A stretch of 64,000 bases of DNA, taken from Apostichopus japonicus. Its lineage: Eukaryota; Echinodermata; Holothuroidea; Aspidochirotida; Stichopodidae. Under the pieces are notes generated by a model, which was not told where the DNA came from, searched no databases, and saw only the letters and a program-made list of their open reading frames with translations. The position numbers and the translations under genes are program-made. This document shows, in pieces, positions 17,558 through 63,494 of this stretch (positions are counted from its first letter, which is position 1; every line of letters begins with the position of its first letter). Where the stretch lies: positions 3,727,001 through 3,791,000 of the forward strand of contig NC_092576.1 of the NCBI RefSeq assembly GCF_037975245.1, given 5' to 3'.

Positions 17558-18224
17558 CTAAAGTGACCCTATGAATAGCTGTAAGGTAATGTACTAACAG
17601 AACACTTTGCAAGCCTTACCTTCACAGCCTGATAGCTAAATAGCTGCAAAGTGATGTACTTACAGAACACTTTGTAAGCCTAACCTTCACAGCCTGATAG
17701 TTACATAGAGCTGCAAGGTAATGTACTAACAGAACACTTTGTAAGTCTTACCTTCACAGCCTGACAGTTACATAGAGCTGCAAGGTAATGTACTAACAGA
17801 ACACTTTGCAAGCCTTACCTTCAGAACCTGATAGCTACATAGAGCTGCAAGGTAATATACTAACAGAACACTTTGTAAGTCTTACCTTCAGAACCTGATA
17901 GCTACATAGAGATGCAAGGTAATGTACTAACAGAACACTTTGTAAGTCTTACCTTCAGAACCTGATAGCTACATAGAGCTGCAAGGTAATGTACTAACAG
18001 AACACTTTGTAAGTCTTACCTTCAGAACCTGATACTGTAGCTACATAGAGCTGCAAGGTAATGTACTAACAGAACACTTTGCAAGCCTTACCTTCACAGC
18101 CTGATAGCTACATAGAGCTGCAAGGTAATGTACTCACAGAACACTTTGTAAGCCTAACCTTCACAGCCTGATAGCTTTTTGGGCAACCAATGTATTCATA
18201 CAGTCTTGTAGTGATTGAACAAGG
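17378..18224 (-). CDS. C-terminal two exons of an unrecognised gene
   Basis: Exon 18159-18224 (66 nt, phase 0 on both sides) joins exon 17378-17557 (180 nt including the stop). Together they encode about 81 residues: ...TRLYEYIGCPKSYQAVK, then LPHLYDMMKECLQQQRYNGL and on to RVIPQRYMPTLDGNSCTILP-stop. The piece is rich in Tyr, Gln and Arg, with no membrane segment or known motif. Acceptors are ggtcactttag and ttaactttag; the donor is gaag|gttagg. I did not find the upstream exons; they should lie between 18225 and the poly(A) site of the next gene near 22190. The function is unknown. Exact frame continuity and the exon-derived repeat next to it support a real gene. Confidence 0.6.
17570..18158. 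repeat. 67-bp array derived from an exon end and its 5' splice site
   Basis: About 9 units. On the minus strand each holds ctatcagg(ctgt or ttct)gaag followed by GTAAG or GTTAG, which is the last part of exon 18159-18224 with its donor. Each unit also has an acceptor-like attaccttgcag 26 nt before the donor. The array fills nearly the whole intron between the last two exons. Confidence 0.9.
18159..18224 (-). CDS. Penultimate exon of the unrecognised gene
   Basis: 22 codons, phase 0 at both ends, between acceptor ttaactttag and donor gttagg. Its last bases (agctatcaggctgtgaag) plus the donor recur in every unit of the adjacent 67-bp array. Confidence 0.55.
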
Positions 18225-18338
18225 CTAAAGTTAAGTACCATCACATAATACCTTAAATGTTCCACTTTACATCCTTTGTTGGACTACCATATATATCTAT
18301 GTGTGATTCCAAAGAATGACAAAAGATAACAGTAAACA

Positions 18339-18423
<85 letters not shown>

Positions 18424-20689
18424 TTGTCGATGTTAAATTAATGTAAATCAGAAACTAGGGAAACAATAGGGAAATAGAAACCTGACATTCAGAGTACTTA
18501 ATATATTAAAGTAAACACTTGAAATGATCTGCCTTCTTCAGCAATCTCATGGTTGGTACAATTGAAAAGGAGAAGGTTAAACACAAAAATGGTGCGAGAA
18601 TATAAATGGGAAACTCTTGAGATTTCAGGGATCTGTGGAGAGTGTAATGTGTTTAGTCAGTCGATGTGTTTGTTGAGTCTAAACACTTACTCTACTTACT
18701 ATACCCTAGTGTTTAAATTTCTGCCAAGGGAGAGTAAGAATACAGTAAACAGCAAGAGATTTTATTGACAGATTGGCAGGAACTCAAGGTTATCATGGAC
18801 AAATCATTTAGGATACTGTCTGTAAAACCTTCACAAGATCTACCTGTGATGATGTTATTTAATACATGTAGTACTCTGAAAGTCACTATGTTAAGTTACT
18901 ATGCATCTGTTCCTTAACTGGTTTAAGATTTATAATATAAATCGAGCTCACATGCACTCCTGTACACATACATATTAAAGAGTGAAACGACATCTATATA
19001 GATCTGATATGCAGCTACCATTCATCACAATATGTGGCTTTGATAGGCTAATAATAGACTCAGGCAAAGAGTACCTTAGTATTACTGTACCTCCTTCACA
19101 TCCAGCATCAGCTGTTACAAATATATTTACAGAGTAAAAATTCAGTCCGTTCAATGACTATGCTACATAAAGAATGATCATGATGCATCAAGAGGTAAAA
19201 CTATGTAACACTTCTTAAACAACTATCAGCACTACTCTGTAAAGTGATTCCTCAACGTGTTGATCACCAAAGAGTTCAACACTTACATTCTTTCACTGAC
19301 CAAGCAAGGATTCAAGAATTACTGCCAGCATGTAATCAATTAAGCAAGATTGATTAACAGTGGGTGGTCACAAGCTGAAAAATTTTCTTAAGAAACTAGA
19401 AAATTTCAAGTTTGACATTAATCCCTCTGCCTTTTTCGATATTTTCTGAGTACTTTGGGGAAAGTGGAAAACCACATGAACTCATGCAGAATGGCCAAAT
19501 AATGTTCCAGAAACATTAATGTCACATGGTCAATTGCTGACATCTGATATCGACAAATTTAATGTGAATGAAAAAGTATCCTCTATGTTCTAGTTACCAG
19601 GAACTCCACGCATTTGTAAACTCTGACAGTCAAAAATAATTGAGTAACATTGAAATATACAGTTTTGTACTATGTAATGAGATACTAACATGTATTGGCC
19701 TAGCCTAAGCACAAGTTTTTCAATTTCTTGTATAAGCAATGTTCTATCAAACTGAAAATTGTGATGAATTTTCATTCCTTTCTCTCATGGGCCATCTTTC
19801 AATACACATAAAATCGTTAAATGACAAACTTGATGAAAAAAAAACCCAGACTCAGACAACGATATGATGTATCAAATTAGTTCTTATCAAATTAGGAACG
19901 CTTTGATGGTTGCAATTTGTTACTTATATTTATACCTTGTTTCAATGTAACCTGCCTTCCATATTTCTATTATATTTGTAGCCAGTAATCTTTCTGTCTA
20001 TGTAACATGTGTTCTTTAGAAGTTTTAGGTGATGCACATTACAGAAGTTGCACAATACCTCAGGCTTCCATGAGCATCTACAATATTGGCCTTAATTGCC
20101 TCTCACTTCAAGATATTTGCTATTGCACTACCCTTTTGACATCTGCTTCCACTAAAAGATATTACGATACAGCTATGTGCTGTTTGAAACATTCAACCTA
20201 TTAAAAATGTTATTTACTACTTATTTATAGTTAACTATAGTTGATCAATGATACTCATTATTAAACTTGAGCTATGAGCTGTTTGAAACACTGGATATGT
20301 TAAATAATGGGATTTTAGTATTTACCACCGTTTAATAGCTGATGAACACTACTCTAAACATGTTACACATTTATGTCCTGAAAAGACCACAATAACAAGA
20401 AATTTGGTAGTTGAAGAGACAAGGGGGATCTGCCATGGATGCAGTCAATACATATATTTAAAAATATTTGAAATATGGTAGCTATTAACGAGCTGTTTTT
20501 GACTGGATCTGCATAGCAAAACACCAAGCTACGGTAGGCAAGAATTAAGACTTCTTAACATTATCTAAAAATTCATCAAGATCAAGTATTGTAGACTACT
20601 TGGCTGTATATTCCAGCTGTGGCTCCTTGAATGCTATTTTTTTCTACTGGTTTCAGTCAATTTATCAAAGGTATTTGATACTAAAATCC
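18225..20689. other. Intergenic or upstream intron of the unrecognised gene; no exon proven
   Basis: It should contain earlier exons of the minus-strand gene. A 21-nt microexon candidate (19092-19112) and a 40-codon frame near 19440-19560 were seen but could not be joined. The ORF at 18553-18768 (+) is unsupported. Confidence 0.35.
18341..18421. repeat. (TA)n microsatellite, about 40 repeats
   Basis: An uninterrupted alternating TA run of about 80 bp, the longest simple dinucleotide tract in the window. Confidence 0.95.
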
Positions 20690-21930
20690 TACAATAGTTA
20701 TGACTAATACCCCTTAACTTGTGTTTTACTTTTCATTTCAACTACTCCATATTTATGACTAATACCCAATAACTTGTGTTTCACTTTTTGTTTCAACTAC
20801 TCCATATTTATGACTAATACCCCATAACTTGTGTTTTACTTTCTATTTCAACTACTCCATATTTATGTCTAATACCCCTTAACTTGTGTTTTACTTTCTA
20901 TTTCAACTGCTCCATATTTATGACTAATACCCCTTAACTTGTGTTTTACTTTCTATTTCAACTACTCCATATTTATGACTAATACCCCATAACTTGTGTT
21001 TTACTTTTCATTTCAACTACTCCATATTTATGACTAATACCCCATAACTTGTGTTTTACTTTCTATTTCAACTACTCCATATTTATGTCTAATACCCCAT
21101 AACTTGTGTTTTACTTTTCATTTCAACTACTCCATATTTATGACTAATACCCCATAACTTGTGTTTTACTTTCTATTTCAACTACTCCATATTTATGACT
21201 AGTACCCAATAACGTGTGTTTCACTTTTCATTTCAACTACTCCATATTTATGACTAATACCCCTTAACTTGTGTTTTACTTTCTATTTCAACTACTCCAT
21301 ATTTATGACTAGTACCCAATAACGTGTGTTTCACTTTTCATTTCAACTACTCCATATTTATGACTAATACCCCATAACTTGGTTTTTACTTTTCATTTCA
21401 ACTACTCCATATTTATGACTAATACCCCATAACTTGTGTTTTACTTTCTATTTCAACTACTCCATATTTATGACTAGTACCCAATAACGTGTGTTTCACT
21501 TTTCATTTCAACTACTCCATATTTATGACTAATACCCCTTAACTTGTGTTTTACTTTCTATTTCAACTACTCCATATTTATGACTAATACCCCATAACTT
21601 GGTTTTTACTTTTCATTTCAACTACTCCATATTTATGACTAATACCCCATAACTTGTGTTTTACTTTCTATTTCAACTACTCCATATTTATGACTAGTAC
21701 CCAATAACGTGTGTTTCACTTTTCATTTCAACTACTCCATATTTATGACTAATACTCCATAACTTGTGTTTCACTTTTCATTTCAACTACTCCATAGTTA
21801 TGACTAATACCCCTTAACTTGTGTTTCACTCTCTATTTCAACTACTCCATATTTATGTCTAATACCCCTTAACTTGTGTTTCACTTTCTATTTCAACTAC
21901 TCCATATTTATGACTAATACCCCTTAACAT
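20690..21930. repeat. 55-bp minisatellite, about 22 units
   Basis: Units with tttcaactactccatattta followed by tgactaatacccc and aacttgtgttttact. Sub-types (cataac, cttaac, caataacg) alternate in blocks, which indicates stepwise amplification. Confidence 0.95.
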
Positions 21931-22205
21931 TTGATTGTCCTCATTTGTATGAAGTTGGCATACTTTACAACATATTGAATACATTAACAGCAATGGCAGT
22001 GGGCTTGATAACCAAACAAACAAACAAACCTCTGAATCACAAATCAAATTCATCAAACCCACTCTGAAAGGATAAACCACAGATAAATTAAAAATGCATA
22101 TAATTGATATCAGAAACATGAAACAGCAAAGAAACAGCACATCAACATTCTCCCAAATTCCAAACTACAAAACAAAAGTTTTGTTATAAAAACAAACTGC
22201 GGACT

Positions 22206-22211
22206 TTTATT
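22206..22211 (-). promoter_or_regulatory. Poly(A) signal of the adenylate-kinase-like gene
   Basis: AATAAA on the minus strand, 84 bp after the stop codon at 22295-22297. It implies a short 3'UTR of about 100 bases. Confidence 0.6.
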
Positions 22212-22294
22212 GCAAAGTAATTACCATGGTAACATAACATTTTTGGCCTTTGTTTTTATCTTTTAGTCCGTGGTGAAGTAATCAGTGAAGTGTC

Positions 22295-22322
22295 CTATGA
22301 TGTCGCCATTACATGTGTGGAC
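22295..22322 (-). CDS. AK-like gene exon 9 (stop)
   Basis: 28 coding bases from acceptor tttcttttag to TAG at 22295-22297, encoding the end STHVMATS. Poly(A) signal 84 bp downstream. Confidence 0.65.
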
Positions 22323-25300
22323 CTAAAAGAAACATAAGAGAAGATCATTTAGCAAAATAATAAAAATATGAAATTGTGATTCAAGATTCATTTTAAGACT
22401 CATTTTAAGAGTTTATTATTGGCATTAACCTAGGTATGGTCTAGAAGACAAATGGTTAACAGAATTTATCACTTTATAAGTAAGATTATCTACCTTTCTC
22501 CTCTAAATATTATCAGCAGTTCTATGGCAAACCTCATTATACCTCTCACTGCATTAGAAATCTGCTACTTAAGGTGGCATACTCCTATTAGCGTCTATAT
22601 CCATCCGCCGCAAGTGTTCTCCTTCAGGAAAAGTGCCAATTAGGAGCAGGAGAACAACTTTTTTTCTATGTTATCAATTAGGATGTGCTTTTTTGTGGCT
22701 TAAGATGTTAAAGAACAATGGAAGCACATGTGGTTAAAAAATGGGGGTAAATTGAGGCAATTTTAGACCAGTTTAGCCCTCCCAGGAGCAGCGTACAAAG
22801 ATTGTTTACGACTGAGTAAAGAGGTTTGTTTACAAGTGACGAAAAGTTCCGGCTCTCGTAGCAAAAAATCTGCACGGTCATGGTACGGAAAATTGATGGT
22901 GCCATGAAAGACCAACTTGTCAGCTATCCAGTGATGGGTAGCGTTTAGCAAGTGAAAACTTCTATCTAGACTTAGAGAACACATTACTTTTGTGATTTAG
23001 TGTGTAAGTCAATGGGGCTTTTAATGGGTGTATGCTACCTTAGTGGGGAAAGTTGGTTTCCCTATCTCATTTGACTTCTTTCTGCATTAGAAAACTGGAA
23101 CTTCTCTTTTATTTCCTGTCATGAAAGAGGGTTATGATCAACTCACCTTGTTAAATCTCTCTCCTTACTCATGAGATCAGCTATTTTATGACACAGGTCC
23201 GTGTTAGTGTCTGATGAGAACAGACAGACTTCATTCTCTGTGCTGGCAACAGCTTTGAACGTCACCGGGTACAGGCTGTTTTTTCGACTTCTGTCTTTCT
23301 TTTCGTTGCTGATGAATATAAACTTGTCCAGGTAGGTGTTCTCAGATTCAAAGAATTTAATTTGTCTTTTGGTCTGGGGGAAGAAGGAAACAAAACTTCT
23401 AGAATGTAATCAATTGGATATACAGGATTTTTGGCAATTAATTAGATAAGGCCAGTTGCTTGAATGGCTTCCCTTGCAAAGAGAAGAGAGGCTAAGAAAT
23501 GTTTAATGGCTAATAGAAATTGTATGTAAATTGGCTGTTCTTGAGACATTACTGCCTTTTCTTCTTGTGGTGGTCCTATGACCTAACTTGTATACAGCCC
23601 AGACACTGCGGGCAAATATTCTGTATTGTCCTCTCACGTACTGAGAGAGGTATGTAACCTGTATATGGCCCACATACTCCTGATAGTCCTCTCAAGTACT
23701 GAGAGAGGTATGTAACCTGTATACAGCCCACATACTCCTGATAGTCCTCTCAAGTACTGGGTGTGGTATGTAACCTGTATATGGCCCACATACTCCTGAT
23801 AGTCCTCTCAAGTACTGGGTGTGGTATGTAACCTGTATATGGCCCACATAGTCCTGATAGTCCTCTCAAGTACTGAGAGAGGTATGTAACCTGTATACAG
23901 CCCACATACTCCTGATAGTCCTCTCAAGTACTGAGAGAGGTATGTAACCTGTATACTGCCCACATAATCCTGATAGTCCTCTCAAGTACTATGAGAGGTA
24001 TGTAACCTGTATAGAGCCCACATACTCCTGATAGTCCTCTCAAGTACTGAGAGAGGTATGTAACCTGTATAAAGCCCACATACTCTGTATTGTCCTCTTA
24101 TGCACTGATTTTTCTATACTGTTGATTTAACAGCTAACATCTTTTGATCTTGACTCACCTCACCCACAGGGCAACGGCTTAGCGTGGTCTCTGTACAATC
24201 AACCACAAATGATTCAGCAAGAGGGGCTGATGTGTCTATCTTGTGACAGAGGGCAGTAATCAGTTTCTCCTGAAGTAAAGAAAGAAAAGGGAGCACAATA
24301 TGTTGAATTAATACCTATTCAGTAAGCTGCTCATTGCTTTGTGTGATTTAAGTCATACATTTGGTACAAAGAATCTTTAACATAAAGAAGAAAGAAAGAT
24401 TTTCTACCAAATCAAATAAAACAAACATTTTGTAAGATTGGTCAATTTCAGGTCTTCCATATGATATCCGTCCACACACACACAGTCACAAAATACTTAC
24501 TAATGGGGCATCGCTTTTATCCACAAAACTGACCAATTTCAGGTGTTCCATATCTGTCCATATTCTAACATACACACAGTCGCAAAATACTTACTAATGG
24601 GGCATCCTTTTTATCCACAAGACTGGCCAATTTAAGGTGTTCCATATGATATCTGCTCAAATCCAAATCCTGAAAAGCATGATCATCTGCAAGAAAGAAG
24701 CAACTTTGATCAATTCCACAATATTAGGCAAAGATCATGTTAATTTGCTGGTGAGGAATTTGTTTTTTAATTTGTTTTCAGTTAGTTGCTTGTTGTGATC
24801 CACCAACCAATGGAATGGGGTTTCATGCTCCCAGTTGCAGTGGTTATAACCATGTTCTTCTCACACTGCTACCATGTCATCATGTGATAAAGGGTTGCTT
24901 CAGATGGTTTCATGGAAGTATGAGGTTTCACGCTCCTAGTTGCAGTGGTTATAACCATGTTCTTCTCACACTGCTACCATGTCATCATGTGATAAAGGGT
25001 TGCTTCAGATGGTTTCATGGAAGTAAGGGGTTTCACGCTCCTAGTTGCAGTGGTTATAACCATGTTCTTCTCACACTGCTACCATGTCATCATGTGATAA
25101 AGGGTTGCTTCAGATGGTTTCATGGAAGTATGAGGTTTCACGCTCCTAGTTGCAGTGGTAATAACCATGTTCTTCTCACACTGCTACCATGTCATCATGT
25201 GGTAAAGGGTTGCTTCAGATGGTCTCATGGAAGTAAGTGGTTTCATGCCCCTTAGTTGCAGTGGTTACAACCATGTTCTTCTCACACTGCTACCATGTCA

Positions 25301-28300
25301 TCATGTGGTTAAGGGTTGCTTCAGATGGTTTCATGGAAGTATGAGGTTTCACGCTCCTAGTTGCAGTGGTTATAACCATATTCTCCTCACACTGCTACCA
25401 TGTCATCATGTGATAAAGGGTTGCTTCAGATGGTTTCATGGAAGTATGAGGTTTCACGCTCCTAGTTGCAGTGGTAATAACCATGTTCTTCTCACACTGC
25501 TACCATGTCATCATGTGGTAAAGGGTTGCTTCAGATGGTCTCATGGAAGTAAGTGGTTTCATGCCCCTTAGTTGCAGTGGTTACAACCATGTTCTTCTCA
25601 CACTGCTACCATGTCATCATGTGGTTAAGGGTTGCTTCAGATGGTTTCACGGAAGCCTCTATAGCGGAGACTGGAGCGACTAGCTGTTAATTCATTTGAC
25701 CCTCCATAAACACTCCATAGGAGTGTTATCTCAGTGGTTAACGCCGGTGCCTATCAATCATAAGGGCCCCCGTTAGAGTCACTCCCAGATTAATGTATAT
25801 GTCGTCCAGTTACAGAGTTGTTGACAATTAACAATTCATAATCATGGATGTTAAATATGAATGTAAGAGACTGATTTTGGTCAGCTTGCAGCTTTGATAA
25901 GCCAATGAGGCTTCTTCGCGAGTTCCTGCTTGAGGGAGGATTTAAAATACATACATACGCACACACATACACCCAGACACATTACAATATAAATCAGTGA
26001 TTACACAGAATCATCAAAACCAACCACACATCCTCTTATACATCCTGAGAACTTTCTATCCAAGTTAAACTTACCAAAAGCAAATACAATGACTGTATTA
26101 ACTGTCTTGTCAGGCACCAGCTCTAAATCCTGTCCAAAGAAATCGCTGACTCTATGCCAAATGAGATCACCGATACCACATGAGACATCTACCACCACAA
26201 GTCTGTTTCTCTCCTTGAAGAAATTTAAAGACCCTTTAACACTCTGGGCGTAGATGGCATGCCGTCTCTGACAGAAGAAGAAGAAACAACAAATATACTT
26301 GAAAATTGACTTAAAGGGAGTGAAGACTCACGTACAAAGAAACATCTGATGCTGGTAATCTGACCTAGTTTCGAATGAGGTGTAACAGAAGTGTAAGACA
26401 CCACCATCGATCCCAGAAAATACACACACAGCTTGCCACAGTCGGTAAGTAGACACTAGTGTACAGTCAATACATGTATGCAGCTACGGTCAATACCCAC
26501 AACACAGTGTACATAGCAGCGATGGACATCTCAGGTCCAGATAAAAATAACAAGGTATCACATTTCATTACTGTCTGCATTTTGTATCGACAAGAAACCA
26601 ACTTCACTTGCAAGCAACGGAAAGTTAACTTTTTTCAGAGGGCGGCACGTGGTTTGGGGGAGTCTTAAATGCCTTTGAAAACTGCAAACAAGAATTGTCT
26701 TCTTAGTATGATTATTGTTGGGAGCCAGTTAATATTTATAAATATCACAACATTTCAGAAATTTCAAGTAACAGCCTCTGAAGAAGATCCTGCTAGGATC
26801 GAAACGTCAACTTACTTTTACACATTCTATTACACAGGCTCTCTAGTGGATAAGCAGTTTGCTAACAGTTTTATTTTATTTTGATTTAACATTTCAGTAA
26901 TTGGCAGCTTAATTATAGGTTATTCCTAATGGGCTGCCTTATACCCTTCTAACTCATCTCATCTATATCCCTATATCTACAGTCATACTACTGTACTTTT
27001 GTCTCCTCCCCGTCCCCCGTACACCTTCTCATCGTCCCCCTTTTTCCTCTTCCCGTTTCGCCCCTCCCCTGTCCCCCTTTTCCCCCATCCTCCTTCTCAG
27101 CATCCTTGCACCTCTTTCATATCATCAGACCTATGGTTCCTGTTTATTTATTGACTTACTTGTGTCCTGGTAAAGTCAGCTTCATCACTCTGCCCCCCTT
27201 CTCCACTTCTTCCCTGTCACCCTTCTCCCCCGCCCCCCCCCTTCTCCCCGTCCCCATTCTCCCCGTCCCCATTCTCCCCCGTCCCCCTTCTCAGCATCCT
27301 TGCACCTCTTTCAGATCATCAGATCTATGGTTCCTGTTCATTTATTGACTTACTTGTGTCCTGGTGGAGTCAGCTTCATCACTCTGCCCCCCTTCTCCCC
27401 TTCTCCCCTGCCCCCCTTCTCCCCCGTCCCCCTTCTCCCCCGTCCCCCTTCTCCCCGTCCCCATTCTCCCCCGTCCCCCTTCTCCCCTGTTCCCCTTCTC
27501 AGCATCCTTGCACCTCTTTCAGATCAATGTTTCCTGTTTATGTATTGACTTACTTGTGTCCTGGTGGAGTCAGCTTCGTCGCTCTGCCCCCCTTCTCCCC
27601 CCATCCTCCTCCCCCGTCACCCTTCTCCCCCGACATCCTTCTCCCCAGTCCTCCTTCTCAGGATCCTTGCACTTCTTTCAGATCATCAGATCTATGGTTC
27701 CTGTTTATTTATTGACTTACTTGCGTCCTGGTGGAGTCGGCTTCGTCGCTCTGCCCCCCTTCCTTCATCTTGTCTGGGTGTTTAGCTCCATGAGCCTGTA
27801 CCTCCTTAACCGCTTTCTGCTCAGGAATGCTCAGATTCAACGCAAAGCAATCAGGAAACTGACACAAGAAATAATGATGAATGTTAATTGACTTATTAAC
27901 TATTAAATGTTCAACTATGTGAATAAGAAGTTAATTTCATACCTGTCATGAATGTTTGCTGTTAACACCCACACTGTAACTGTAGACTTTACTAATCAAA
28001 TCTCATATTTGCTAAATACTCTGTTTTGTTTTTTATAATGAAGGAAAATTTCAAACAGTTACAACTTTCTCAAGTCTTAAAGCCTTAGCTGGATCAAATG
28101 CAATATTAATCTGCTAATTAATCAGCCCATGTGGTAAAATTATCGGAAAAAGATTAAAAAAAAAAGAAAAAAGAACTTTGAAAAGATGCTTAGATATTGA
28201 AGTTCTGTTTCTGTTGCACCAGACTACAGATTTAAATTTCTGTGATCTTAAGATTAATTCCTGTGAACATCTTTGGTATATGACTATACAAAAATTAAAC

Positions 28301-31300
28301 GATGGCTCATCAGACCACAAAAAAAGTCTTAGCTGCCCAAAATACTAACCTTCTCGCAAAACCTCTTCAAATGATAATCTGGTTCCTGAAGAAAATTTTC
28401 ACATCTAAGCAGGAATTTGAGGTTAGGTACAAGATCTATAAGATGCATTGTCTTGGGTTCCAGCTGAAGTTCAGTTGCTATCATGTCAATCACCCACTCA
28501 AGGTCAAGAACACTAGGATTATCCTGAAAGACATTTAATAAAATATAAACAAGTTATTATATTTGCAGGTCATGATATTACACAGTGATACCAAATCAGC
28601 AGCCTACCGGGCCTAAAGTTAACCACATGTATGGTGATTGGGTATTAAGGCCCTTTTGGCCATAGACTTTAACACCCAGCCAGCCTCTATCTTTATCACA
28701 TTACTCAATATCTAGGTAGAACAGCACCATACAATATGGTCACACTTTGGATCACTCTGAAAATGAATTTAGACAACCCTTGATATGGAGTATTTGTATA
28801 TATACTACTATGCAAATCCTAAAAATGCATCTGTTACTCCTTCCTCCATAGTTTGCAAAGATTAATTTTGATTCTTGCATAAGCCAGGACTTTGGTTGTG
28901 TACTACAGGTAGTATGGAACAACAAAATGCCATTGTGTAACACATGTGTGTATTAGTGTAGTCACCACATACAGGTACACTAAGAACATCATGTACTGTA
29001 CACATGAATGTTTGCATTTAGTGTGTCACCACATGTATACTAAGAACATCATGTACTGTACACATGGATGTGTGTATTAGTGTAGTCACCACATGTTACT
29101 AAGAACATCATGTCATGTAGTTAGTACATATCTTGTGTAATACATACTTTCTCCATACTTGTCATATAGTTAGTACATATCTTGTGTAATACATACTTTC
29201 TACATACTTGTCATATAGTTAGTACATATCTTGTGTAATACATACTTTCTCCATACTTGTCATATAGTTAGTACATATCTTGTGTAATACATACTTTCTC
29301 CATACTTGTCATATAGTTAGTACATATCTTGTGTAATACATACTTTCTCCATACTTGTCATATAGTTAGTACATATCTTGTGTAATACATACTTTCTACA
29401 TACTTGTCATATAGTTAGTACATATCTTGTGTAATACATACTTTCTCCATACTTGTCATATAGTTAGTACATATCTTGTGTAATACATACTTTCTCCATA
29501 CTTGTCATGTATATTTATTACATATTCTTGTGTAATGCATACTTTCTTCATACTTGTCATGTATAGTTAGTACATATCTTGTGTATTAATACATGATATT
29601 TATACATTCATTCAATAGTATACTGTTACAATAGTCTCCACTGCCAAGTCAAAGTGAATTAACCCATTGAATTCATCAATTTATCAGCAATGATTGTCAA
29701 AGAGTAAGTTACCAACTGTACATGTTACATCCAGTGGCTCCCCTACAGGGCATCTTTTAAGTGTCATGTTCTATGTAATACACATGTTCTGGTTGTCACG
29801 AACCACATTGTGACAGTTATTAGATTAGCTCTCATTCCAGAACAAACGTACACCTCTGACTGGATTCACTGTGCAGATGTATACACACAATTAATGTGAC
29901 ATTAACTGCTTGCGACCGATGTGCTGTGGTTAATGGGTGTCATCAAACACACTAGACTGTCGAGTTTGTAACAGACTTGTCAAATGAAATAATAACTACA
30001 GTATGGACAGCACTTCAATTTGTTGTTTTGCGATCATGTGTCTTTAAGTTCATCTGGCAGGCTTACAGATAAACATGTACAGAGAGGATTAGTAATTTAA
30101 TTGCTAGGTAGTACTGTGAAATAGACGTATATATAGGTTGAGACTAGTGGAACACTAGTAGTTGTTACTCAGAGTTTCATGCGTTGAGCGATCGTCAGAC
30201 AACTCATATAGATACATATCAAGATAGATAGGAATAACGGAAAAACTGTTAAACGACTATGCTGCATTTAGAGAAAGGCTGGATCTTGAGTGAGATACAA
30301 TAATTAAACTAAGTAACTGATTGGAGGTAAAACAGCCAATGTTTGGTTTTTGCAGAGCTTTCGAGCAAAACTAGCTCTTTCCCATCCTTCCCATGCCCTC
30401 TACCCCGCCCCTCTTTACATCCTTACATGCCACTGGTGTAACTGTTAATATGATATAGTAGCAAGTAAATCGACTTCACTGATCTGGTACTGGTCATGCA
30501 TGTAGAATACACTGTACCGTATAGCTTATCATTACATCGCAAAGTGTGATTGGCTGTCCAGAGGTTGACACGGTAGACCTACAATATGTAATTTATTATT
30601 CAAATTAATGAGGGCTGTTCTACAATGCAGTATTTCAGGACAGGTATGTGGATACTGAAACTACCATTGCATTGAAGGGGTGTACAATCTGGTGTGACCT
30701 TGTGTGCAGGTCAACACCCCTTGGGAGTGTGAGGCAGGACTCCAGGGGGTACAAAGCTATAGACATCTAGACAAATTACACTAATGAGTAAGAACAGAAA
30801 TTCAATCATTCTAATAATTTGTTATATTTAATGGACAATTATGTGCCACAGAGTCTATGAAGTTAAATTGTGTCCAAAAGGTTTTCAGGTTCCCCCCTCT
30901 GTTGACCTTAAATGACCTTTGATCTTCACAGAAAAGACATTAGGTTCTTGGATCAATAGGACCGATATATACCAAGCACGATAATCATCCGCAATGAATG
31001 TCTTTTTCTCCATCATTTCTCTTCTCCATCCCTTGTCTACTAATCCCCTTACATCTATCTCTCTGTGTTCACTATGCTCATTAACCTGTCTGTATTCTGT
31101 GTATGTATTTGTCCCTTTTGTTACTGTTACTTGTCATTCAGCCTCTGAAGAAGATCCTGCTAGGATTGAAAAGTCAGGCCAACTAATACTTTAACACATT
31201 CTCCTACACAGGCTCTGTAGTGGATTTAGCAGTTTGCTAACAGTTTTATTTTACTTTGATGAATGTCTTTAGTTAGTGTAAACTTACACAGGTGTCACAT

Positions 31301-34300
31301 ATATAAATAGTAATACACACACACACATCAACATTAATTGATTAATTGTGTGTAGATGGGACATTATTTTCTCATCTGTTGTAACTACCTATAAATACCC
31401 ACACACATTGTGTGTAGATTGGACATTATTTTCTCATCTGTTGTAACTACCTACAAATACCCACACACATGGTGTGTAGATGGGACATTGTTTTCTCATC
31501 TATTGTAACTACCTATAAATACCCACACACATGGTGTGTAGATGGGACATTATTTTCTCATCTGTTGTAACTACCTATAAATACCCACACACATTGTGTG
31601 TAGATGGGACATTATTTTCTCACCTAGATTTGTAACTACCTATAAATACCCACACACATTGTGTGTAGATGGGACATTGTTTTCTCATCTATTGTAACTT
31701 CCTATAAATACCCACACACATGGTGTGTAGATGGGACATTGTTTTCTCACCTAGATTTGTAACTACCTATAAATACCCACACACATGGTGTGTAGATGGG
31801 ACATTATTTTCTCATCTATTGTAACTACCTATAAATACCCACACACATTGTGTGTAGATGGGACATTATTTTCTCATCTATTGTAACTTCCTATAAATAC
31901 CCACACACATTGTGTGTAGATGGGACATTGTTTTCCCACCTATTGTAACTTCCTATAAATATCCACACACATTGTGTGTAGATTGGACATTATTTTCTCA
32001 CCTAGATTTGTAACTACCTATAAATACCCACACACATTGTGTGTAGATGGGACATTGTTTTCTCATCTATTGTAACTTCCTATAAATACCCACACACATG
32101 GTGTGTAGATGGGACATTGTTTTCTCACCTAGATTTGTAACTACCTATAAATACCCACACACATGGTGTGTAGATGGGACATTATTTTCTCATCTATTGT
32201 AACTATCTATAAATACCCACACACGGTGTGTAGATGGGACATTGTTTTCTCATCTATTGTAACTACCTATAAATACCCACACACATGGTGTGTAGATGGG
32301 ACATTGTTTTCCCACCTATTGTAACTTCCTATAAATATCCACACACATTGTGTGTAGATTGGACATTATTTTCTCATCTGTTGTAACTTCCTATAAATAC
32401 CCACACACATTGTGTGTAGATGGGACATTGTTTTCCCACCTATTGTAACTATCTATAAATACCCACACACATTGTGTGTAGATGGGACATTGTTTTCCCA
32501 CCTATTGTAACTACCTATACATACCCACACACATGGTGTGTAGATGGGACATTGTTTTCTAATCTAGCTGCTGTAACTACCTATAAATACCCACACACAT
32601 TGTGTGTAGATGGGACATTGTTTTCTCACCTAGATTTGTAACTACCTATAAATACCCACACACATGGTGTGTAGATGGGACATTGTTTTCTCACCTAGAT
32701 TTGTAACTACCTATAAATACCCACACACATGGTGTGTAGATGGGACATTGTTTTCTCACCTAGATTTGTAACTACCTATAAATACCCACACACATGGTGT
32801 GTAGATGGGACATTATTTTCTCACCTAGATTTGTAACTACCTATAAATACCCACACACATTGTGTGTAGATGGGACATTATTTTCTCACCTAGATTTGTA
32901 ACTACCTATAAATACCCACACACATGGTGTGAAGATGGGACATTATTTTCCCACCTATTGTAACTACCTATAAATACCCACACACATGGTGTGTAGATGG
33001 GACATTGTTTTCTCATCTGTTGTAACTACCTATAAATACCCACACACATTGTGTGTAGATGGGACATTGTTTTCTCACCTAGATTTGTAACTACCTATAA
33101 ATACCCACACACATGGTGTGTAGATGGGACATTGTTTTCTCACCTAGATTTGTAACTACCTATAAATACCCACACACATGGTGTGTAGATGGGACATTAT
33201 TTTCTCATCTATTGTAACTACCTATAAATACCCACACACATTGTGTGTAGATTGGACATTATTTTCTCACCTAGATTTGTAACTACCTATAAATACCCAC
33301 ACACATGGTGTGTAGATGGGACATTGTTTTCTCACCTAGATTTGTAACTACCTATAAATACCCACACACATTGTGTGTAGATGGGACATTGTTTTCTCAT
33401 CTATTGTAACTACCTATAAATACCCACACACATGGTGTGTAGATGGGACATTATTTTCCTACCTATTGTAACTACCTATAAATACCCACACACATGGTGT
33501 GTAGATGGGACATTATTTTCTCATCTATTGTAACTACCTATAAATACCCACACACATTGTGTGTAGATGGGACATTGTTTTCTCATCTATTGTAACTTCC
33601 TATAAATACCCACACACATGGTGTGTAGATGGGACATTGTTTTCCTACCTATTGTAACTACCTATAAATACCCACACACATGGTGTGTAGATGGGACATT
33701 ATTTTCTCATCTATTGTAACTACCTATAAATACCCACACACATGGTGTGTAGATGGGACATTATTTTCTCATCTATTGTAACTACCTATAAATACCCACA
33801 CACATGGTGTGTAGATGGGACATTATTTTCTCACCTAGATTTGTAACTACCTATAAATACCCACACACATGGTGTGTAGATGGGACATTGTTTTCTCACC
33901 TAGATTTGTAACTACCTATAAATACCCACACACATGGTGTGTAGATGGGACATTGTTTTCCCACCTATTGTAACTTCCTATAAATACCCACACACATTGT
34001 GCGTAGATGGGACATTATTGAATAAGTTTGATCTTAATAGTTTTTACTCTCTCTTGTAATATTATTCAAATCAGTTGATCTTATTTGATAACTTTATACT
34101 CCAGGTCTGTAACCTCCTGGTTAATATCACACAATAAGTAACAAATATGATAATCCCCCCCCCCCAATTGGGGATGTGGGATGTTACCTGTTATAATATG
34201 TTCACTCTAGGGGGGGAGAGAGGTAGAGAGAGAGAGTTCTGAGGTTGAAGCAAGCAAGGAAGGGGAGTAAACTTGACAACAACAGAACTTACTATACATA

Positions 34301-55364: not shown

Positions 55365-55899
55365 TACCTGTCAACTCTCCCGGTTTTACCGGGAGACTCC
55401 TGGCTTTTACTCGAATCTCCCGGCCTCCCGGTTTCATATTCTATTCTCCCGGTTTTTCTATGTTCTACACTTGCGACATTTCTGAGAACAGCCAACAATT
55501 AGTCCTATGCTTAGTAATTCCCCACAGTAACGCTGAACAGGAAAGGCTATTCAGAGTAGTTCGCAAGAACAAGACAGTCGGTCAAGTCCCAAGCTTGATG
55601 GGACTCAATCTAGCATACTAGCCATGAAGTCACAGTACCTAGAGTCCAATGTTCCCTGTTTCAAATGGAAGCCTATACTAAAGAAACCCTGAAGAAAGCG
55701 AAGCGAGCTGCTGTAAACTACAACAAGAAACACTGATTGGATGATTCTCTCACTGTATTGCATAAGTAGACTATACTTATTTAGGAGTATTTAGGAGTGA
55801 AAATTACCAACCTCCCTATTTTCCCCTTGTTCTCCCTATTTTTTGGCTCTGAAAAATGTTATTCTCCCTATTTTGGGGTCAAACAGGTTGATAGGTCTG
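55365..55899 (+). mobile_element. Internally deleted hAT element with transposase C-terminal fragment
   Basis: The left end tacctgtcaactctcccgg and right end gttgataggtctg form short imperfect inverted repeats, flanked by tatatgca and tatatgta (7 of 8 matching). Inside, LCLVIPHSNAEQERLFRVVR, then KNKTVG, then in shifted frames KLDGTQSSILAMKSQYLESN, CFKWKP and LKKAKRAAVNYNKKH-stop form the hAT C-terminal dimerisation region. At least two frame breaks make it inactive. Repeated ctcccggt and ctccctatttt motifs lie near the two ends. Confidence 0.85.
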
Positions 55900-55907
55900 T
55901 ATATGTA

Positions 55908-57199
55908 CAAATCTATGGAAATAAAATCATATAGTGAACAAAATTCAAAACCTAAAATAAGAAAAGGACAAATAAATGACAAAGAGGCAGAAACAAGCCA
56001 GAAGGGTAATGGTTTGGTTTTTACTGTTTGTATTGCACTTATCCCTCACTACACCAGATTAAAACAATAAACTGATCGATAAATTAAATACATAAATTAA
56101 GTACTTTTAGAAACAACTCTTCATAACATAAACCTCAACATGGCAAACGAATACAGTACTATGTATAGACTTTCATCATATGAATATTCAATAAGTAAGA
56201 ATAAATGTTAGTATTCTTTTCTTTTCCATTCCAAAAAATAGGACAAATCAAGAATGACTGAAGAAAATGAAATCGAACCTTCGAAAAAGATGAAGAAAGA
56301 GACAGAAAGAATGAAACAAGTTTAGAAAGAAAGAAATAAATCTGCTAATTAAGAGAAATTTTACATCTTTTCCAAACTCTAAATAAATAAATATGATTTA
56401 TTTTCTTCATGTACAATTTTCCGCTTAAATTAAATCAAATAATCTTTTATGGAATACATGCTGTGGTTTATAAAGTTGTCATGCTGTGGTTACATAACAT
56501 AAATCCAAATCAATAACAAAAGAATATATACTGCATTTCAGTGCATTATTTAGTTTCACAATTATCCTTAAATTCCTACTACTTTTGTTTGAAATCAGGT
56601 CGCCGGATTAATATTTTTAGGTTTGACACTGTACTTAAGCTGTTCAATTGTACTTAATATGGTCACTACCCCAAGTTTCAGGTATATATCAATTCGCTAT
56701 TGATTGAGCCAATTGATATGAACTTAAGGTATAACTTGCTACACTTTGTCAAATTATTAAGGTTTAGGTTTATAAAACAGCAGCAGGAGAAGTACTTTAT
56801 AATATCCGACGTTAGCCACTTGATATTAAGTTAAGCCATTCTTTGCCACATTATTAGTACTAATATCACTCCCAAGTGCACCTCATGCATTACAAGTCAA
56901 TATTTTACAGTGACTGATTCTCTTCAGCTGAAATATTATTAATAGTATACATTATACACACTCCAATACTTTGTCTGTTATGTGTAACTGATAATGAGAG
57001 TACCTGTAACTATTATAAGTAGCATTAACTCACTGATAAATGTGGTCTAGTCTAACATTGTACATTATAATGGTACCTGCTCCTCTTCAACTATACAGGC
57101 TAGCCTGGGCAGGTCATATTACACATTTTCTTTATTTAATCATGAAAGTAAATCTTTGTTGAAAATGAAAGTGAAATATTCTTATTATTGATTGTATCA
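55908..57199. other. Intergenic AT-rich stretch
   Basis: No gene or repeat recognised. A 56240-56340 purine-rich stretch (agaaagaatgaaac-like) is low complexity. Confidence 0.55.
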
Positions 57200-57560
57200 G
57201 GGGCAGCAATATATGTATTATGATGTATGCAGCAATATCTACAGCAATATCATATTGTAAATGTGTACAGTAATTTATGTATTGTAATGTGTACAGCAAT
57301 ACATGTATTGTAATGTGTACAATGATATATATATATATATATATTTATATATTGTAATTTATACAGCAATATATGTATTGCAATGTGTACAGTAATTTAT
57401 GTATTGTCATATATACAGCAATACATGTATTGTAATGTGTACAATGATATATATATATATATATATATTGTAATTTATACAGCAATATATGTATTGCAAT
57501 GTGTACAGTAATTTCTGTATTGTATAGCAATACATGTATTGTAATGTGTACAGTAATATA
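57200..57560. repeat. 25-26 bp tandem repeat with interspersed (AT)n
   Basis: Units acagcaatatatgtattgta and atgtgt, with alternating AT runs at about 57325 and 57448. Related units continue after the SINE at 57815-57930. Confidence 0.85.
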
Positions 57561-57657
57561 TCACCAAAACAGAACTAGTATTGTTCGATACAGGTGACAA
57601 ACGCCAATAGTGGAATTACGACCTTCCTTACTGGTTTCGAACCTCTGGACATACAAT

Positions 57658-57812
57658 CAGCGCCCATAGCCTAGTTCTTAGGGATGTCCGCATATAAAGC
57701 GGGAGGCCCGGGTTCGAATCCCGGTGGAAGCTGGAATTTTTTTCACTGTTATGGATTTTACAACTCATTACGATTTCAATTATATTTATATATATATATA
57801 TATATATATATT
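57658..57812 (+). mobile_element. tRNA-derived SINE, family 1
   Basis: A-box-like tagcctagttcttagg, perfect B box gggttcgaatcccgg, then ttcactgttatggattttac, caactcattacgatttcaat and an (AT)n tail. It sits inside the 25-bp array, so it inserted into or seeded the AT repeats. Matches 9906-10012 in the opposite orientation. Confidence 0.8.
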
Positions 57813-57930
57813 GTAATGTATACAGACATTTATGTATCGCAATGTATACAGCAATTCATGTATTGTTATGTAAACAGCGATTCATGTATTGTTATGAAAA
57901 ACAGCAATTCATGTATTGTTATGTGTAAAG

Positions 57931-59454
57931 GCCAGTCGTTTACGCAAGGCACCAGTAAGACTACGTGCAAACTTTAAAGATGGCGACATGGTTTCTAGCA
58001 GGGTCTTGTGACAAGTGTAATCATTCCTAGAATCAGAAGAGGCTGATTAGTTGCCATATACACTGTTTGATATATACACTGTCCTCAGTGTAACTTTATC
58101 AATGTTTGCTACGTAATGTCTAACTATTACCTTTGAACATGGTACATCAAGGTCCCTACAAAAGAACTGATTCTAAAGAATTAGGTTAGTTAATGAAGTT
58201 TAATATTAAACCATAAAGAATACTGATATATACTGCAGCAATAAACTAACTGAATATTTGCAGCTGTATATGGATCTAATGGATACAGTCCCTAGTGTAG
58301 ACATTAAACAGTCTGTCTTTGATGAGAGCTGCAAGTAAGCTTGTTTTATACAACACCTAATTGTATTCTGGTCATTTGATTGGTCAATTGCTCGTTGATT
58401 GCATGCAAAATCTGCTCTATTCCACTCTATGAAATTGAACCATGGGTTATACTCTTTTGGTAGCACTTTTTTCAATGGTAAGAGAGCAGAGAAACATGTC
58501 TGTTCAAAACAATCTGTTGCATGACTGCATTTTACCCATCTTAATATAATATGTTGCGCCTCGTTGAATGGAACAAATTACATCTTTCAACTCGTGAGAT
58601 ATTTGCACTATTGCACGAATGGAAACCATTCATTATTTGTATAATATTCCATGGCCTCTCTCTCCTCCACTAACGAAGACTGGCACAATGATGATGGCCC
58701 AGATCACAGTCCTTCCACTCTTGTTCTAATCATATGTAAATTACAATACCTATTGCGATGGATTTGTGGCATAGGTTAAATGTTTGTATTTGTGATAAAA
58801 AAGGACACAGAGTTACTGAACGTCTTAGCCATCTGCTGTGACCTTTCGTACTTTGTACTGTTCATTAACTCAGGTAGTTTGGGAGTCTGTACGCTGTATG
58901 TAAGCTGTATGAGTCTGTACGCTGCAAATATAAATGGATGCTTATATCCTGAGTAAACTTGGAAAAGGATGAAGATTGGAGAAAGGATGAAGAAAAGGAT
59001 GAAGATTGGAGAAAACAGATGGGCATGGAGAATAAATATGATAAAAGGAAGTTAACCAAATCTATATATAATGCTAATGAAAGAAGAATGGTTATGATTT
59101 GCACTAACCCTGGGAATACAAATGTCCTAAAATACATGAATATGCAGTAGAAATGGTTCTAAGCTACTAGACTGTTGTGATAAATGAAAGAAAACATAGA
59201 AAAACATCAAATGTAGAATCATGAAATGAATAAATGAATGTAATCTAAGCATATACAGATACTGGAATAGAGACCAGAATGTTTTGAGGCAAATGTCAAA
59301 CTTTAGGGATAAACAAGTTGATTTTAAGCATTTTTAAAATATCATTATATGACAAATGTGGAACAGAAGGATAAATCAAATAATACCATCTGAGAATCAC
59401 CGAGAAATGGAATACAGAGTCTACTTAAATCTAAAATAGAAGATTTCTTTGGAA
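57931..59454. other. Intergenic sequence, no gene seen
   Basis: 58970-59030 has a short three-unit repeat of ggatgaagattggagaaa. Otherwise nothing recognisable on either strand. Confidence 0.5.
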
Positions 59455-60330
59455 GAAACTTATAATGCTACAACCATGTGGAGTCTACTGTGATGATTAA
59501 TACAATACTAACATACCTATGACATTGCTAGTTGATATTTATCCTCAAGGCTCCATCTGTCCAGTTGTATACAAACTTATAATGCTACAACCATGTGGAG
59601 TCTACTGTGATGATTAATACAATACTAACATACCTATGACATTGCTAGTTGATATTTATCCTCAAGGCTCCATCTGTCCAGTTGTATACAAACTTATAAT
59701 GCTACAACCATGTGGAGTCTACTGTGATGATTAATACAAACTAACATACCTATGACATTGCTAGTTGATATTTATACTCAAGGTTCCATCTGTCCAGTTG
59801 TATACAAACTTATAATGCTACAACCATGTGGAGTCTACTGTGATGATTAATACAAACTAACATACCTATGACATTGCTAGTTGATATTTACACTCAAGGT
59901 TCCATCTGTCCAGTTGTATACAAACTTATAATGCTACAACCATGTGGAGTCTACTGTGATGATTAATACAAACTAACATACCTATGACATTGCTAGTTGA
60001 TATTTATACGCAAGGTTCCATCTGTCCAGTTGTATACAACCTTATAATGCTACAACCATGTGGAGTCTACTGTGATGATTAATACAATACTAACATACCT
60101 ATGACATTGCCAGTTGATATTTATACGCAAGGCTCCATCTGTCCAGTTGTATACAACCTTATAATGCTACAACCATGTGGAGTCTACTGTGATGATTAAT
60201 ACAATACTAACATTCCTATGACATTGCCAGTTGATATTTATCCTCAAGGCTCCATCTGTCCAGTTGTATACAACCTTATAATGCTACAACCATGTGGAGT
60301 CATCTGTGATGATTAATACAATTTGATGTA
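59455..60330. repeat. 117-bp minisatellite, about 7.5 units
   Basis: Units contain acttataatgctacaaccat, gtggagtctactgtgatgat, acctatgacattgctagttg and ccatctgtccagttgtatac. On the minus strand each unit carries catag|gtatgt, a donor-like site, but no open exon could be joined to it. Confidence 0.95.
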
Positions 60331-60569
60331 TTTTTATGCAGATATAATATGCTCACTCTTTACATAACATTTCTAAACTTTAGCCATCATTTTAAGATAA
60401 AATGCAGAGAACTTTGTGAAATCTTGTACTTGGACTGGAATGAATAGCTTGTACTGTGTCTGCACTTGAAAGGAAAATAACATTGTATCTACAATAACTG
60501 AACTCCCTGCATAGAAGAGAGTATAAAGAATATTTCCCACACCTCTCCCTCCACCTTCAGAAAGTGGAA

Positions 60570-60660
60570 TAGGAGGGAAGGGGAGGGGAGGGTAGGGGAG
60601 GTAGGGGAGGTAAGGGGAGGGGAGGGGAGGAAAGGGGAGGGGAGGGAAGGGCAGGAGGGA
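60570..60660. repeat. GGGGA-rich low-complexity tract
   Basis: Purine-only run of ggggagg/ggggaagg repeats on the + strand, with G-quadruplex or triplex potential. Confidence 0.85.
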
Positions 60661-61080
60661 TTGGGATTATATTACCCTTAAAAGCAGACATAAGTTTACT
60701 AACAAAGCAAACTATTTAGTCTGTATTCCCAACAGAAGACTTGCTTAAATTAACACAAAAATATTTGTCATATTTAGATATTGTACTGACCAATCAGAAA
60801 TCTGCTTATCCCTTAAATCCACCAATGGGATGAGACCAACAACATGAAGAAAGCTTGACAAAAACTGAAAACGATAAATGGAAGCCCCTTGCTTTAAGCT
60901 TAAAATGCTAATATTTCTTTTCTACTATCAAAGACCAGTTCTCTTTTGTTTTCAATAATTTAATTTAAAGTTTCAATACTATGTGTAATTCGGAATGTCT
61001 CTAGTATGTCTACAGATTTATGCTGTGTGCTCTTATGTTAACATTGTCTGTGTGAGACACTCTATCACATGTTAGATGGA

Positions 61081-61086
61081 TTTATT
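61081..61086 (-). promoter_or_regulatory. Poly(A) signal of the RUNDC1-like gene
   Basis: AATAAA on the minus strand about 295 bp after the stop at 61381. Confidence 0.5.
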
Positions 61087-61380
61087 CAGCTATGAAACCA
61101 TAACCTTATGACAAAATGTGAATGATTCTTTGCCTGTATTAAACCAGGATATCACATTTAGTTAAAGAACCATGCATATTCATGAGGTGAAGAAGTATGT
61201 ACATTATATGCTTCAGTTGTTACAGATCCATTTTAACATGCTGGTCTACTAATCCTATCGGATTAAGCTTTTTAGCAGCCATGATCCACCCATCTGATCC
61301 CTAATCTGATCCCATGGCTTGATCCCTGATATACTGTCATCACCTCCTGATCCAATCAGAACAAGGAAGAGACTGACTTT

Positions 61381-61487
61381 TCAGAAGGCATCCTTTATGG
61401 CAGTGAACTGCTTGACAGCGAGGTCCGCAGGCAGATGGAATTTCAGTTCGTTGAGTTTATCAAGAATCTGAAGCACACTGTCAAACT
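61381..61487 (-). CDS. RUNDC1: RUNDC1-like terminal exon
   Basis: Acceptor ttctctgtag; 34 codons plus TGA (61381-61383). FHLPADLAVKQ just before the end is the most characteristic part. Confidence 0.8.
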
Positions 61488-63494
61488 CTACAGAGAAAAA
61501 GAACAGTGAAAAGAAATCATGATACATGTCAAAATAAAAGTTTAAGACTCTGATTGATTGGTTGAAATGAATTACCTACCTTACTGCTTAGTAGTCATGT
61601 AGGAATATGTGACTTACTTGATGCAGCCATGTATTTATAAGTAGTATAGTAATTGATACAGACTAAGTCATATGTACCTTACTTAAAACAGCCATTTAAT
61701 AATAAGTATCTCACTTGATACAGCCTTGTATTCACAAGTACTTGATACAGTAATGTAGTCATAAGTATCTTACTAAGACAGTCAAGAAGGAATGGGTATA
61801 CTTACTCCAGGAAGGTTGGTAGAAGTAAGAATCATACTCGATACACTCAAGTAGTATTAAGTACCATACTTGATATATCCATGTTGTAATAAGAATATTA
61901 CTTGATACAGTTTTGTAGTCATAAGTAACTTACTTAGTACACTAATGTAATAATGAGTATTTGTACTTGATACACACACGTAGTAATATTAATTAGGACT
62001 TCATACAGAAATGAGTATTGTACTTGAGTAATATGCAGTAATATGTTTGTTACTTGATACAGTATTTTAGTAATAGGTAACTTACTTGATGTAGACATGT
62101 AACTCCATGATAAGTAATTATTCTCTATCAGGTACTTGACAGAGTCTTGCAGTAATATATATGTTACTTGATACAGTCTTTTAGTTATAGGTAACTTATT
62201 GATGTAGACATGTAACTCCATGATAAGTAATTATTCTCTATCAGGTACTTGACAGTCTTGCAGTAATATGTATGTTACTTGATACAGTCTTTTAGTAATA
62301 GGTAACTTACTTGATGTAGACATGTAACTCCATGATACGTAATTATTCTCTATCAGGTACTTGGTCTTGTAGAGGTGTTTACACCAGACTGACAACTTCC
62401 TTTGACTGAATAATACAAGGAGGAAATGTTTGACATAAGTAAAACAAAATCACACAAACGCAGCAAACTATTGTACTGACCTCTGACACACTAATTGTTT
62501 ACAAATGATACGAAAAATGTGGAATTAAAAAAGCATTGAAGCAAAACATGTGATGGAAGGTTATTACCTATCAGTACTGCAATCATATATCTAATTGATG
62601 TAAGCTTGATGATTAAATATTAATAATCAAGAACATTTTCTGGTGTTAATATAACACAGGTGTTCTGTAGATATAATATGTACATTACCTATATTGTATT
62701 TTATTCTACAGTTTTACTACATATTATGTGTCATATATTTTTTTACTGTTACATAGCCTTTTAGAGCACTTTTGTGGATTTTATGCTTCATAAAATAAAT
62801 TATTATTATTATTATTATTATACTTTGCTGTTTAGTTATAGCTCATGTAGGTATGTTTATTATACAATGCTGTTTAGCTACTGTTCATGTTTATTATACT
62901 ATGCTGTTTTGTTACTGTTCATGTAGATATGACATGCTCATTACAGCGTGTTCTACAACTCACTTCAGGGCTTCACAGAAGAGGGCCTTGAACCTGGACT
63001 GTGTGCTCGTTCTTACAGTTTTACAACTCACTTCAGTGCTTCACAGATCAGGGCCTTAACCCCAGACTCTGTGCTTATTCTTAATATTTTACAACTCACT
63101 TCAGGGCTTCACAGATCAGGGCCTTCAACCTAGACTCTGTGCTCATTCTTACAGTTTTACAACTCACTTCAGGGCTTCACAGATCCGGGTCTTGAACCTA
63201 GACTCTATGCTCGTTCTTACTGTTACATAACTCACTTCAGTGCTTCACAGATCAGGGCCTTGACCCTAGACTCTGTGCTCATTCTTACAGTTTTACAACT
63301 CACTTCAGGGCTTCACAGATCAGGGCCTTGAACCTGGACTCCGGGCTTCTCTTCAGAGGGTTGTGAGATTCCTCTATTGCATGAATCGTTGCCAGTAGAA
63401 TCTGACGGGAGGTAATAGCAGTCCCACCGACAATGTTCAGATCAAATGCCTGGGAGAGACACCTTGCTGGAGACTCGGAAAACTCTTTCCCATG
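61381..63494 (-). CDS. RUNDC1: RUNDC1-like RUN-domain protein, last three exons
   Basis: Exons 63304-63494, 62311-62405 and 61381-61487 join in phase into 130 residues. Exon 1 of this set gives ARCLSQAFDLNIVGGTAITS, RQILLATIHAIEESH and SRFKALICEAL. The second gives NQRKLSVWCKHLYKTKYLIE and NNYVSWSYMSTS. The third gives FDSVLQILDKLNELKFHLPA and DLAVKQFTAIKDAF-stop. The order FKALICEALN..KLS.W, then a stretch like Y..WS, then a short helical end fits the second half of a RUN domain close to the C-terminus, as in RUN domain-containing protein 1. RUN domains bind small GTPases of the Rap and Rab type and RUN proteins act in vesicle traffic or signalling; that part is family knowledge. The N-terminal coiled-coil part would lie right of the window. 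Family assignment by memory of the pattern, not by search. Confidence 0.7.
61560..62310. repeat. Tandem array derived from RUNDC1-like exon n-1 end plus donor
   Basis: Two near-identical units of about 110-120 bp (from about 62076 and 62187) contain gtagacatgtaactccatga and taagtaattattctctatca, the complement of the exon end. The rest of each unit is gttacttgatacagtctttt. Older degenerate units (acttgatacagccatgta-like) extend down to about 61560. One unit has lost a donor base (aacttattgatg). Confidence 0.9.
62311..62405 (-). CDS. RUNDC1: RUNDC1-like exon n-1
   Basis: 95 nt, acceptor tattattcag, donor gtaagt. It completes the RUN-domain helices. The 3' part (tacctgatagagaataatta to acatcaa) with donor is repeated in the intron just after it. 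Confidence 0.8.
62795..62822. repeat. (TTA)n microsatellite
   Basis: aaataaa followed by about eight tta repeats; possibly the tail of a LINE/SINE insertion (ttagagcacttttgtggat before it). Confidence 0.8.
62945..63303. repeat. 69-bp array derived from RUNDC1-like exon n-2 end plus donor
   Basis: Five extra units of caactcacttcagggcttca, cagatcagggccttgaacct and agactctgtgctcattctta. The first two parts are the complement of the exon end, including its GTGAGT donor, which is kept in every unit. Confidence 0.95.
63304..63494 (-). CDS. RUNDC1: RUNDC1-like exon n-2
   Basis: 63 codons plus two bases, acceptor tttatacag, donor gtgagt, phase 0 in. The last 38 bases and the donor are repeated five times in the array 62945-63303. 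Confidence 0.8.

Follow-up and report, generated by a model that had tools for sequence, protein, structure and literature searches.

Repeated donor sites within a minisatellite occur in the human gene IFI6/6-16, in which the repeat unit has a length of 12 bp and alternative donor use has been reported. In amphioxus, minisatellite-like tandem copies over an exon-intron boundary, which are located in the intron and often keep the AG/GT, are termed mirages, a name credited to Canestro et al. 2002 in the available parts of the amphioxus literature (PMC3087553, PMC3902484). These parts describe mirages in Adh3, the globin genes BflGb6 and BflGb9, troponin C, and PGBD5, of which the last two were added by PMC3902484; in case of BflGb6, the two haplotypes contain 6 and 3 repeat units, respectively (PMC3087553, PMC3902484). 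Both 5' and 3' boundaries are affected, RT-PCR suggested regular splicing (PMC3087553), and mirages were put forward as a source of intron gain (PMC3087553, PMC3902484). Intron gain of the Rogers type is based on the tandem duplication of AGGT segments, with a potato RdRp variant, fission yeast SPOG_01682, and ATP2A1 as examples in the accessible part of PMC4974935.

Arrays of this kind were observed in the sea cucumber Apostichopus japonicus, in and around a window of 64,000 nucleotides located at C16:3727001-3791000, by which we refer to the whole stretch of DNA presented above. The exon-edge arrays are real, but their kind is already known (mirages) and they are not specific to donors. With IFI6/6-16 they share the minisatellite with repeated donors, but the IFI6/6-16 unit is short. 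Similar to amphioxus mirages, the units contain exon as well as intron bases, are located in introns, and occur at both boundary types. The amphioxus cases differ in being from lancelets and in being accompanied by RT-PCR, whereas the present ones are from an echinoderm and their splicing is read from gene models. Furthermore, the 6 and 3 units of BflGb6 contrast with up to 73 copies in the sea cucumber, and an intron made up entirely of donor and acceptor copies, as observed here, does not occur in the available parts of the amphioxus accounts (PMC3087553, PMC3902484). Rogers-type gain, as described in the accessible part of PMC4974935, resembles our observations in that a splice site or AGGT segment is tandemly duplicated and that intron sequence derives from exon sequence, but the sea cucumber introns seem to be existing ones that are growing. 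A literature search by title and abstract opening revealed no such arrays in echinoderms, which does not establish their absence from print. The echinoderm case, the wholly array-derived intron, and decoy donors that would each add a stop codon are apparently the newer points.

Gene models and donor-edge arrays in the window

Exon edges were fixed by tblastn of the predicted proteins P0001, P0121, and P0135 combined with frame continuity, which resulted in three gene models with 27 introns, both edges of each intron being fixed by homology. The RUNDC1-like gene (minus strand) comprises 15 exons, and its model equals A. japonicus P0001 (584 aa) letter for letter. Once the exons were spliced, the Pfam RUN domain was found, and a database search with this protein, assembled from exons in the window and in its right flank, gave the RUNDC1-like P0001 as the best match with 99% identity. 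Unspliced reading frames scanned in full length against Pfam, with X in place of stops, yielded no match even over the true RUN exons, so that these scans are insensitive. The AK-like gene (minus strand) consists of 9 exons and its model is identical to A. japonicus P0121 (424 aa), which is uncharacterised but similar to UMP-CMP kinase 2 and to adenylate kinase; a PDB search with a partial protein of this gene gave only two matches, with E values of 0.34 and 0.41. The CRK-like gene is situated approximately 34 kb to the right of the window. Its reference P0135 originates from another A. japonicus contig and is matched by the model across six mapped exons except for one residue. The 5' end of this gene (first residues of P0135) is unmapped, and its first intron lies outside the 27 introns.

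All window features listed in the following are encoded on the minus strand. In the numbering of this analysis, exons 1, 2, and 3 of the AK-like gene (tblastn model, P0121) are located at 53630-53480, 40876-40716, and 28523-28350, followed by exon 4 at 27721-27858, exon 5 at 26267-26075, exon 6 at 24595-24686, exon 7 at 24269-24159, and exon 8 at 23147-23373, the latter without edge duplication; exons 4 to 8 likewise follow P0121. The last coding exon (22296-22322) encodes the protein end RSTHVMATS, directly followed by the stop. In case of exon 4, the last 42 bases, the donor GTAAGT, and adjacent intron sequence recur at +167, +367, and +561, which corresponds to a TRF array at 27064-27762 with a spacing of 167-200 bp and three extra copies. 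G-rich sub-repeats of approximately 16 bp are situated between the donor copies of this array and represent a second-level minisatellite. A genome-wide search with a 601-bp query over exon 4, in which common words were skipped and only the best candidates scored, retrieved only the query itself and the three local copies. In case of exon 6, the last 53 bases and GTAAGT recur at +94 (TRF, 24474-24647, 94 bp), and a third copy is truncated.

Two further arrays belong to exons of the RUNDC1-like gene that follow P0001. The last 38-45 bases of exon 13 (63304-63494) and its donor GTGAGT are copied in an array with a unit of 68 bp (TRF, 62950-63341), in which all five extra copies keep GTGAGT. For exon 14 (62311-62405), the last 53-62 bases and the donor GTAAGT are copied with a unit of approximately 112-113 bp (TRF, 62034-62363), and degenerate copies continue to approximately 61640. 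The last exon of this gene (61381-61487, also in agreement with P0001) is free of duplication. The initial annotation had assigned copied 3' ends to five exons of three minus-strand genes. The strand and four of these exons, starting at 27721, 24595, 63304, and 62311, are confirmed, but the four belong to two genes, the RUNDC1-like and the AK-like gene.

The fifth claimed exon, 18159-18224, is unsupported. It is absent from P0121, and no gene was found that uses an exon at this position. Since the AK-like CDS ends at approximately 22296, the claimed exon is situated 4 kb beyond the stop and thus outside the CDS. An ab initio exon scan, from which predictions with more than 60% of their length in arrays were dropped, did not list it either, but this is weak evidence, because several true exons, including 24595-24686 and 62311-62405, were missed by the same scan. 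An array with a 67-bp unit and approximately 9 copies (TRF, 17577-18176, minus strand) is present at this site. Its unit contains an AGGTAAG-like motif and a TTGCAG motif, and an unannotated exon may or may not be associated with the array.

Donor and acceptor edges compared

A boundary was considered a strict case if the copies revealed by local alignment contained 20 or more exon bases. Among the 27 introns, strict copies were observed at six donors, namely those of RUNDC1-like introns 13 and 14, CRK-like introns 3 and 4, and AK-like introns 4 and 6 (33-62 exon bases in the best copies), and at two acceptors, those of CRK-like intron 2 (34 exon bases) and intron 4 (21 exon bases). The donor of RUNDC1-like intron 5, with 6 exon bases, is a borderline case. 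Five introns thus carry strict copies at the donor only, one at the acceptor only, and one at both, which gives p ~0.22 in a sign test by hand. When 40-mers straddling an edge were required to recur in the adjacent intron with at least 30 of 40 matching positions, seven donors, including that of RUNDC1-like intron 5, and one acceptor were flagged, with the acceptor of CRK-like intron 2 being missed. An earlier list of 31 exons with seven donors and no acceptors, in which some edges were approximate, was replaced by the 27 introns.

As a sample from elsewhere, 25 myosin exons in 20 stretches on eight other contigs were taken from 70 Pfam matches in the genome. Their edges were placed at the best AG/GT near the HMM match, so that some may be wrong, and copies were sought within approximately 650 bp on each side. 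No strict donor, one strict acceptor (L039, contig C19), and one borderline donor (L035, 7 bases) were found. The acceptor array of L039 includes 69 exon bases; upstream, there are two additional, near-identical copies complete with tract and AG.

In total, the tested span covers 61 kb of genes and the 25 further exons with approximately 650 bp per side. Strict copies occur at 6 of 52 donors and 3 of 52 acceptors, and at these nine boundaries the exon share of the best copies is 21-69 bp, i.e., the unit spans exon and intron. At least one strict case is found in 7 of the 27 introns of the three-gene neighbourhood, and at 1 of the 50 myosin exon edges. The claim that the acceptor end is never copied therefore does not hold for the genome, given the acceptor copies at CRK-like introns 2 and 4 and at the myosin exon on C19. 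Without the four donors of the initial annotation, two strict donors are left against three acceptors (four against three if borderline cases are included), and the two kinds are about equally frequent.

Minisatellites also occur in the window away from mapped exon edges, at 1-2945 (28 x 106 copies), 15112-15974 (25 x 34), 20694-21928 (55 x 22), 31348-34016 (62 x 42), and 59456-60322 (117 x 7). Two observations concern other parts of the assembly. On C16, three similar predicted exons, Ig-like by eye only, are located approximately 15 kb apart at 3611654, 3626814, and 3640898 (plus strand); they apparently form a local gene family, and none of them carries an edge array. Contig C29 (31,219 bp) contains COX1 split into several fragments that include TGA codons (approximately 14745-16086 and 30842-31219), which are either a rearranged mitochondrial copy or a nuclear insertion, the mitochondrial contig being C35. 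The mitochondrial genes are arranged in the order known from sea urchins and sea cucumbers, and AAA stands at conserved Asn positions, in accordance with the echinoderm code.

Decoy donors and an intron built from its two ends

CRK-like intron 4 (C16:3826451-3831096, outside the window) consists over its whole length of 4,646 bp of tandem repeats. In this intron, a donor unit of 62 bp is present in 73 copies, directly followed by two extra copies of an acceptor unit of approximately 50 bp. The true acceptor is that of the third acceptor unit, and the unique core of the intron is gone. With this intron, which is 100% array, the proposal of repeated tandem duplication of an exon edge and its splice site, accompanied by intron growth, is supported.

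As to the statement that nearly all copies keep the donor, GT is retained in 91 of the 95 copies counted in the six strict donor arrays. Retention of GT is close to that of the rest of the unit, being somewhat higher in five arrays and lower in one, RUNDC1-like intron 14 with 3 copies. In the array of CRK-like intron 4, each GT base is kept at 0.986, and the remaining positions of the 30 compared bases average 0.944 (73 copies). A GT about as conserved as the remainder of the unit fits young, homogenised copies.

In all introns with donor arrays, the gene model takes the first donor. If any of the 91 alternative GT donors (71 of them in CRK-like intron 4) were used, the retained piece would contain an in-frame stop in each case. 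As every decoy donor would add a stop, the first donor presumably wins, as judged from the sequence. In the three genes, the copies are intronic and leave the predicted protein unchanged, as models with the outermost sites equal P0001 and P0121; in case of the CRK-like gene, a single residue differs from P0135 across the exons that were mapped.

Origin of the arrays and its implications

Tandem arrays with a unit of at least 20 bp constitute 20% of the 264-kb neighbourhood, with 38% of the three-gene span compared to 14.6% outside, and 9% of the myosin stretches; five kinase loci were used solely for codon training and array density. As arrays fill 38% of the three genes, chance straddling of exon edges is expected to be common. 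We regard the arrays as mirages, i.e., ordinary minisatellites from local tandem duplication of which some straddle exon edges, and assign to this reading a probability of roughly 0.78. The mechanism that we infer would start with a local tandem duplication by slippage or microhomology, in a genome with many intronic minisatellites. Where the first duplication by chance straddles an exon edge, the copies would fall in the intron. Subsequently, unequal exchange would enlarge and homogenise the array, and selection would tolerate the copies as long as the site at the exon edge, the first donor or the last acceptor, stays in use. The outcome would be a longer intron and an unchanged protein.

The initial annotation had instead proposed a donor-linked mutational process, such as slippage or R-loop-linked duplication, and had argued that chance would not pick donors so often; U1 pairing or co-transcriptional breakage at GTAAG would be further ways of seeding donor copies. 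When the 33 arrays of the three genes were re-placed at random, with exon-swallowing placements rejected and an overlap of at least 8 bp required, the expectation was 2.2 overlaps for donors and likewise 2.2 for acceptors, compared to 6 and 2 observed (P=0.013 for donors, 0.70 for acceptors, and 0.056 for both edges). Two further arrays, those of RUNDC1-like intron 5 and myosin L035, begin 6-7 bases inside the exon end. However, the donor value includes the four sites that prompted the study, which make up four of the six donors. When only exons beyond the window were considered, with 16 arrays and a required overlap of 5 bp or more, three donors compared to 1.6 expected (P=0.18) and two acceptors compared to 1.6 expected (P=0.49) were observed, and the myosin sample contributed no strict donor but one strict acceptor. 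Moreover, the 25 genic arrays beyond the edge set lack a strand bias of donor motifs, with mean best scores of -0.79 in sense and -0.75 in antisense; the donor and acceptor score tables of the analysis contain rough values. A donor-seeking process is thus possible, but the donor excess leans on the initially selected sites and loses significance once the window is left; with acceptors duplicated as well (3 of 52, compared to 6 of 52 donors), a mutational process of the proposed type is not demonstrated by these counts, and we consider it improbable. A general descent of genic arrays from donors is not supported by the motif strand-bias test.

A donor excess would also result from selection in the absence of any mutational preference, if arrays at acceptor edges were less tolerated than those at donor edges: a duplicated polypyrimidine tract and AG upstream would in many cases be chosen for splicing, but at donor edges the first site would win by exon definition. 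The excess in the three genes and the harm predicted from use of any of the 91 alternative GT donors are in agreement with such a filter, and, provided that the models are correct, an intron with 71 decoys requires a strong choice of the first donor. Arrays at donors may be favoured by selection over those at acceptors; acceptor arrays do exist, however, including the one at myosin exon L039 with its upstream copies, and the asymmetry between donors and acceptors is not significant in the sign test. As an explanation of the arrays, the filter is conceivable but somewhat unlikely. False copies introduced during assembly are very improbable. Tandem arrays are error-prone in assemblies, but size and chromosome number agree with those of a published PacBio HiFi assembly (671.60 Mb, 23 chromosomes; PMC10344927), which is, as we infer, the present one, the majority of copies deviate from the true boundary, with differences of up to 28%, and edge arrays occur at five unrelated loci (three genes and two myosin exons).

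Interpreted as mirages, the arrays extend this phenomenon from lancelets to an echinoderm, where it may be common. Common mirages in echinoderms would fit either an old habit of deuterostomes or a repeated origin. It is tempting to speculate that exon-edge duplication serves sea cucumbers as a routine engine of intron growth, in which introns are reconstructed from copies of both their ends, possibly with a true mutational or selective preference for donors, and in which splicing strictly follows the first donor although up to 71 decoys retain GT, but we consider this extension rather doubtful. The array-bearing genes represent natural experiments on how a single 5' splice site is selected by the spliceosome from dozens of near-identical candidates, and open the way to a whole-genome test of boundary duplication as a mode of intron growth.
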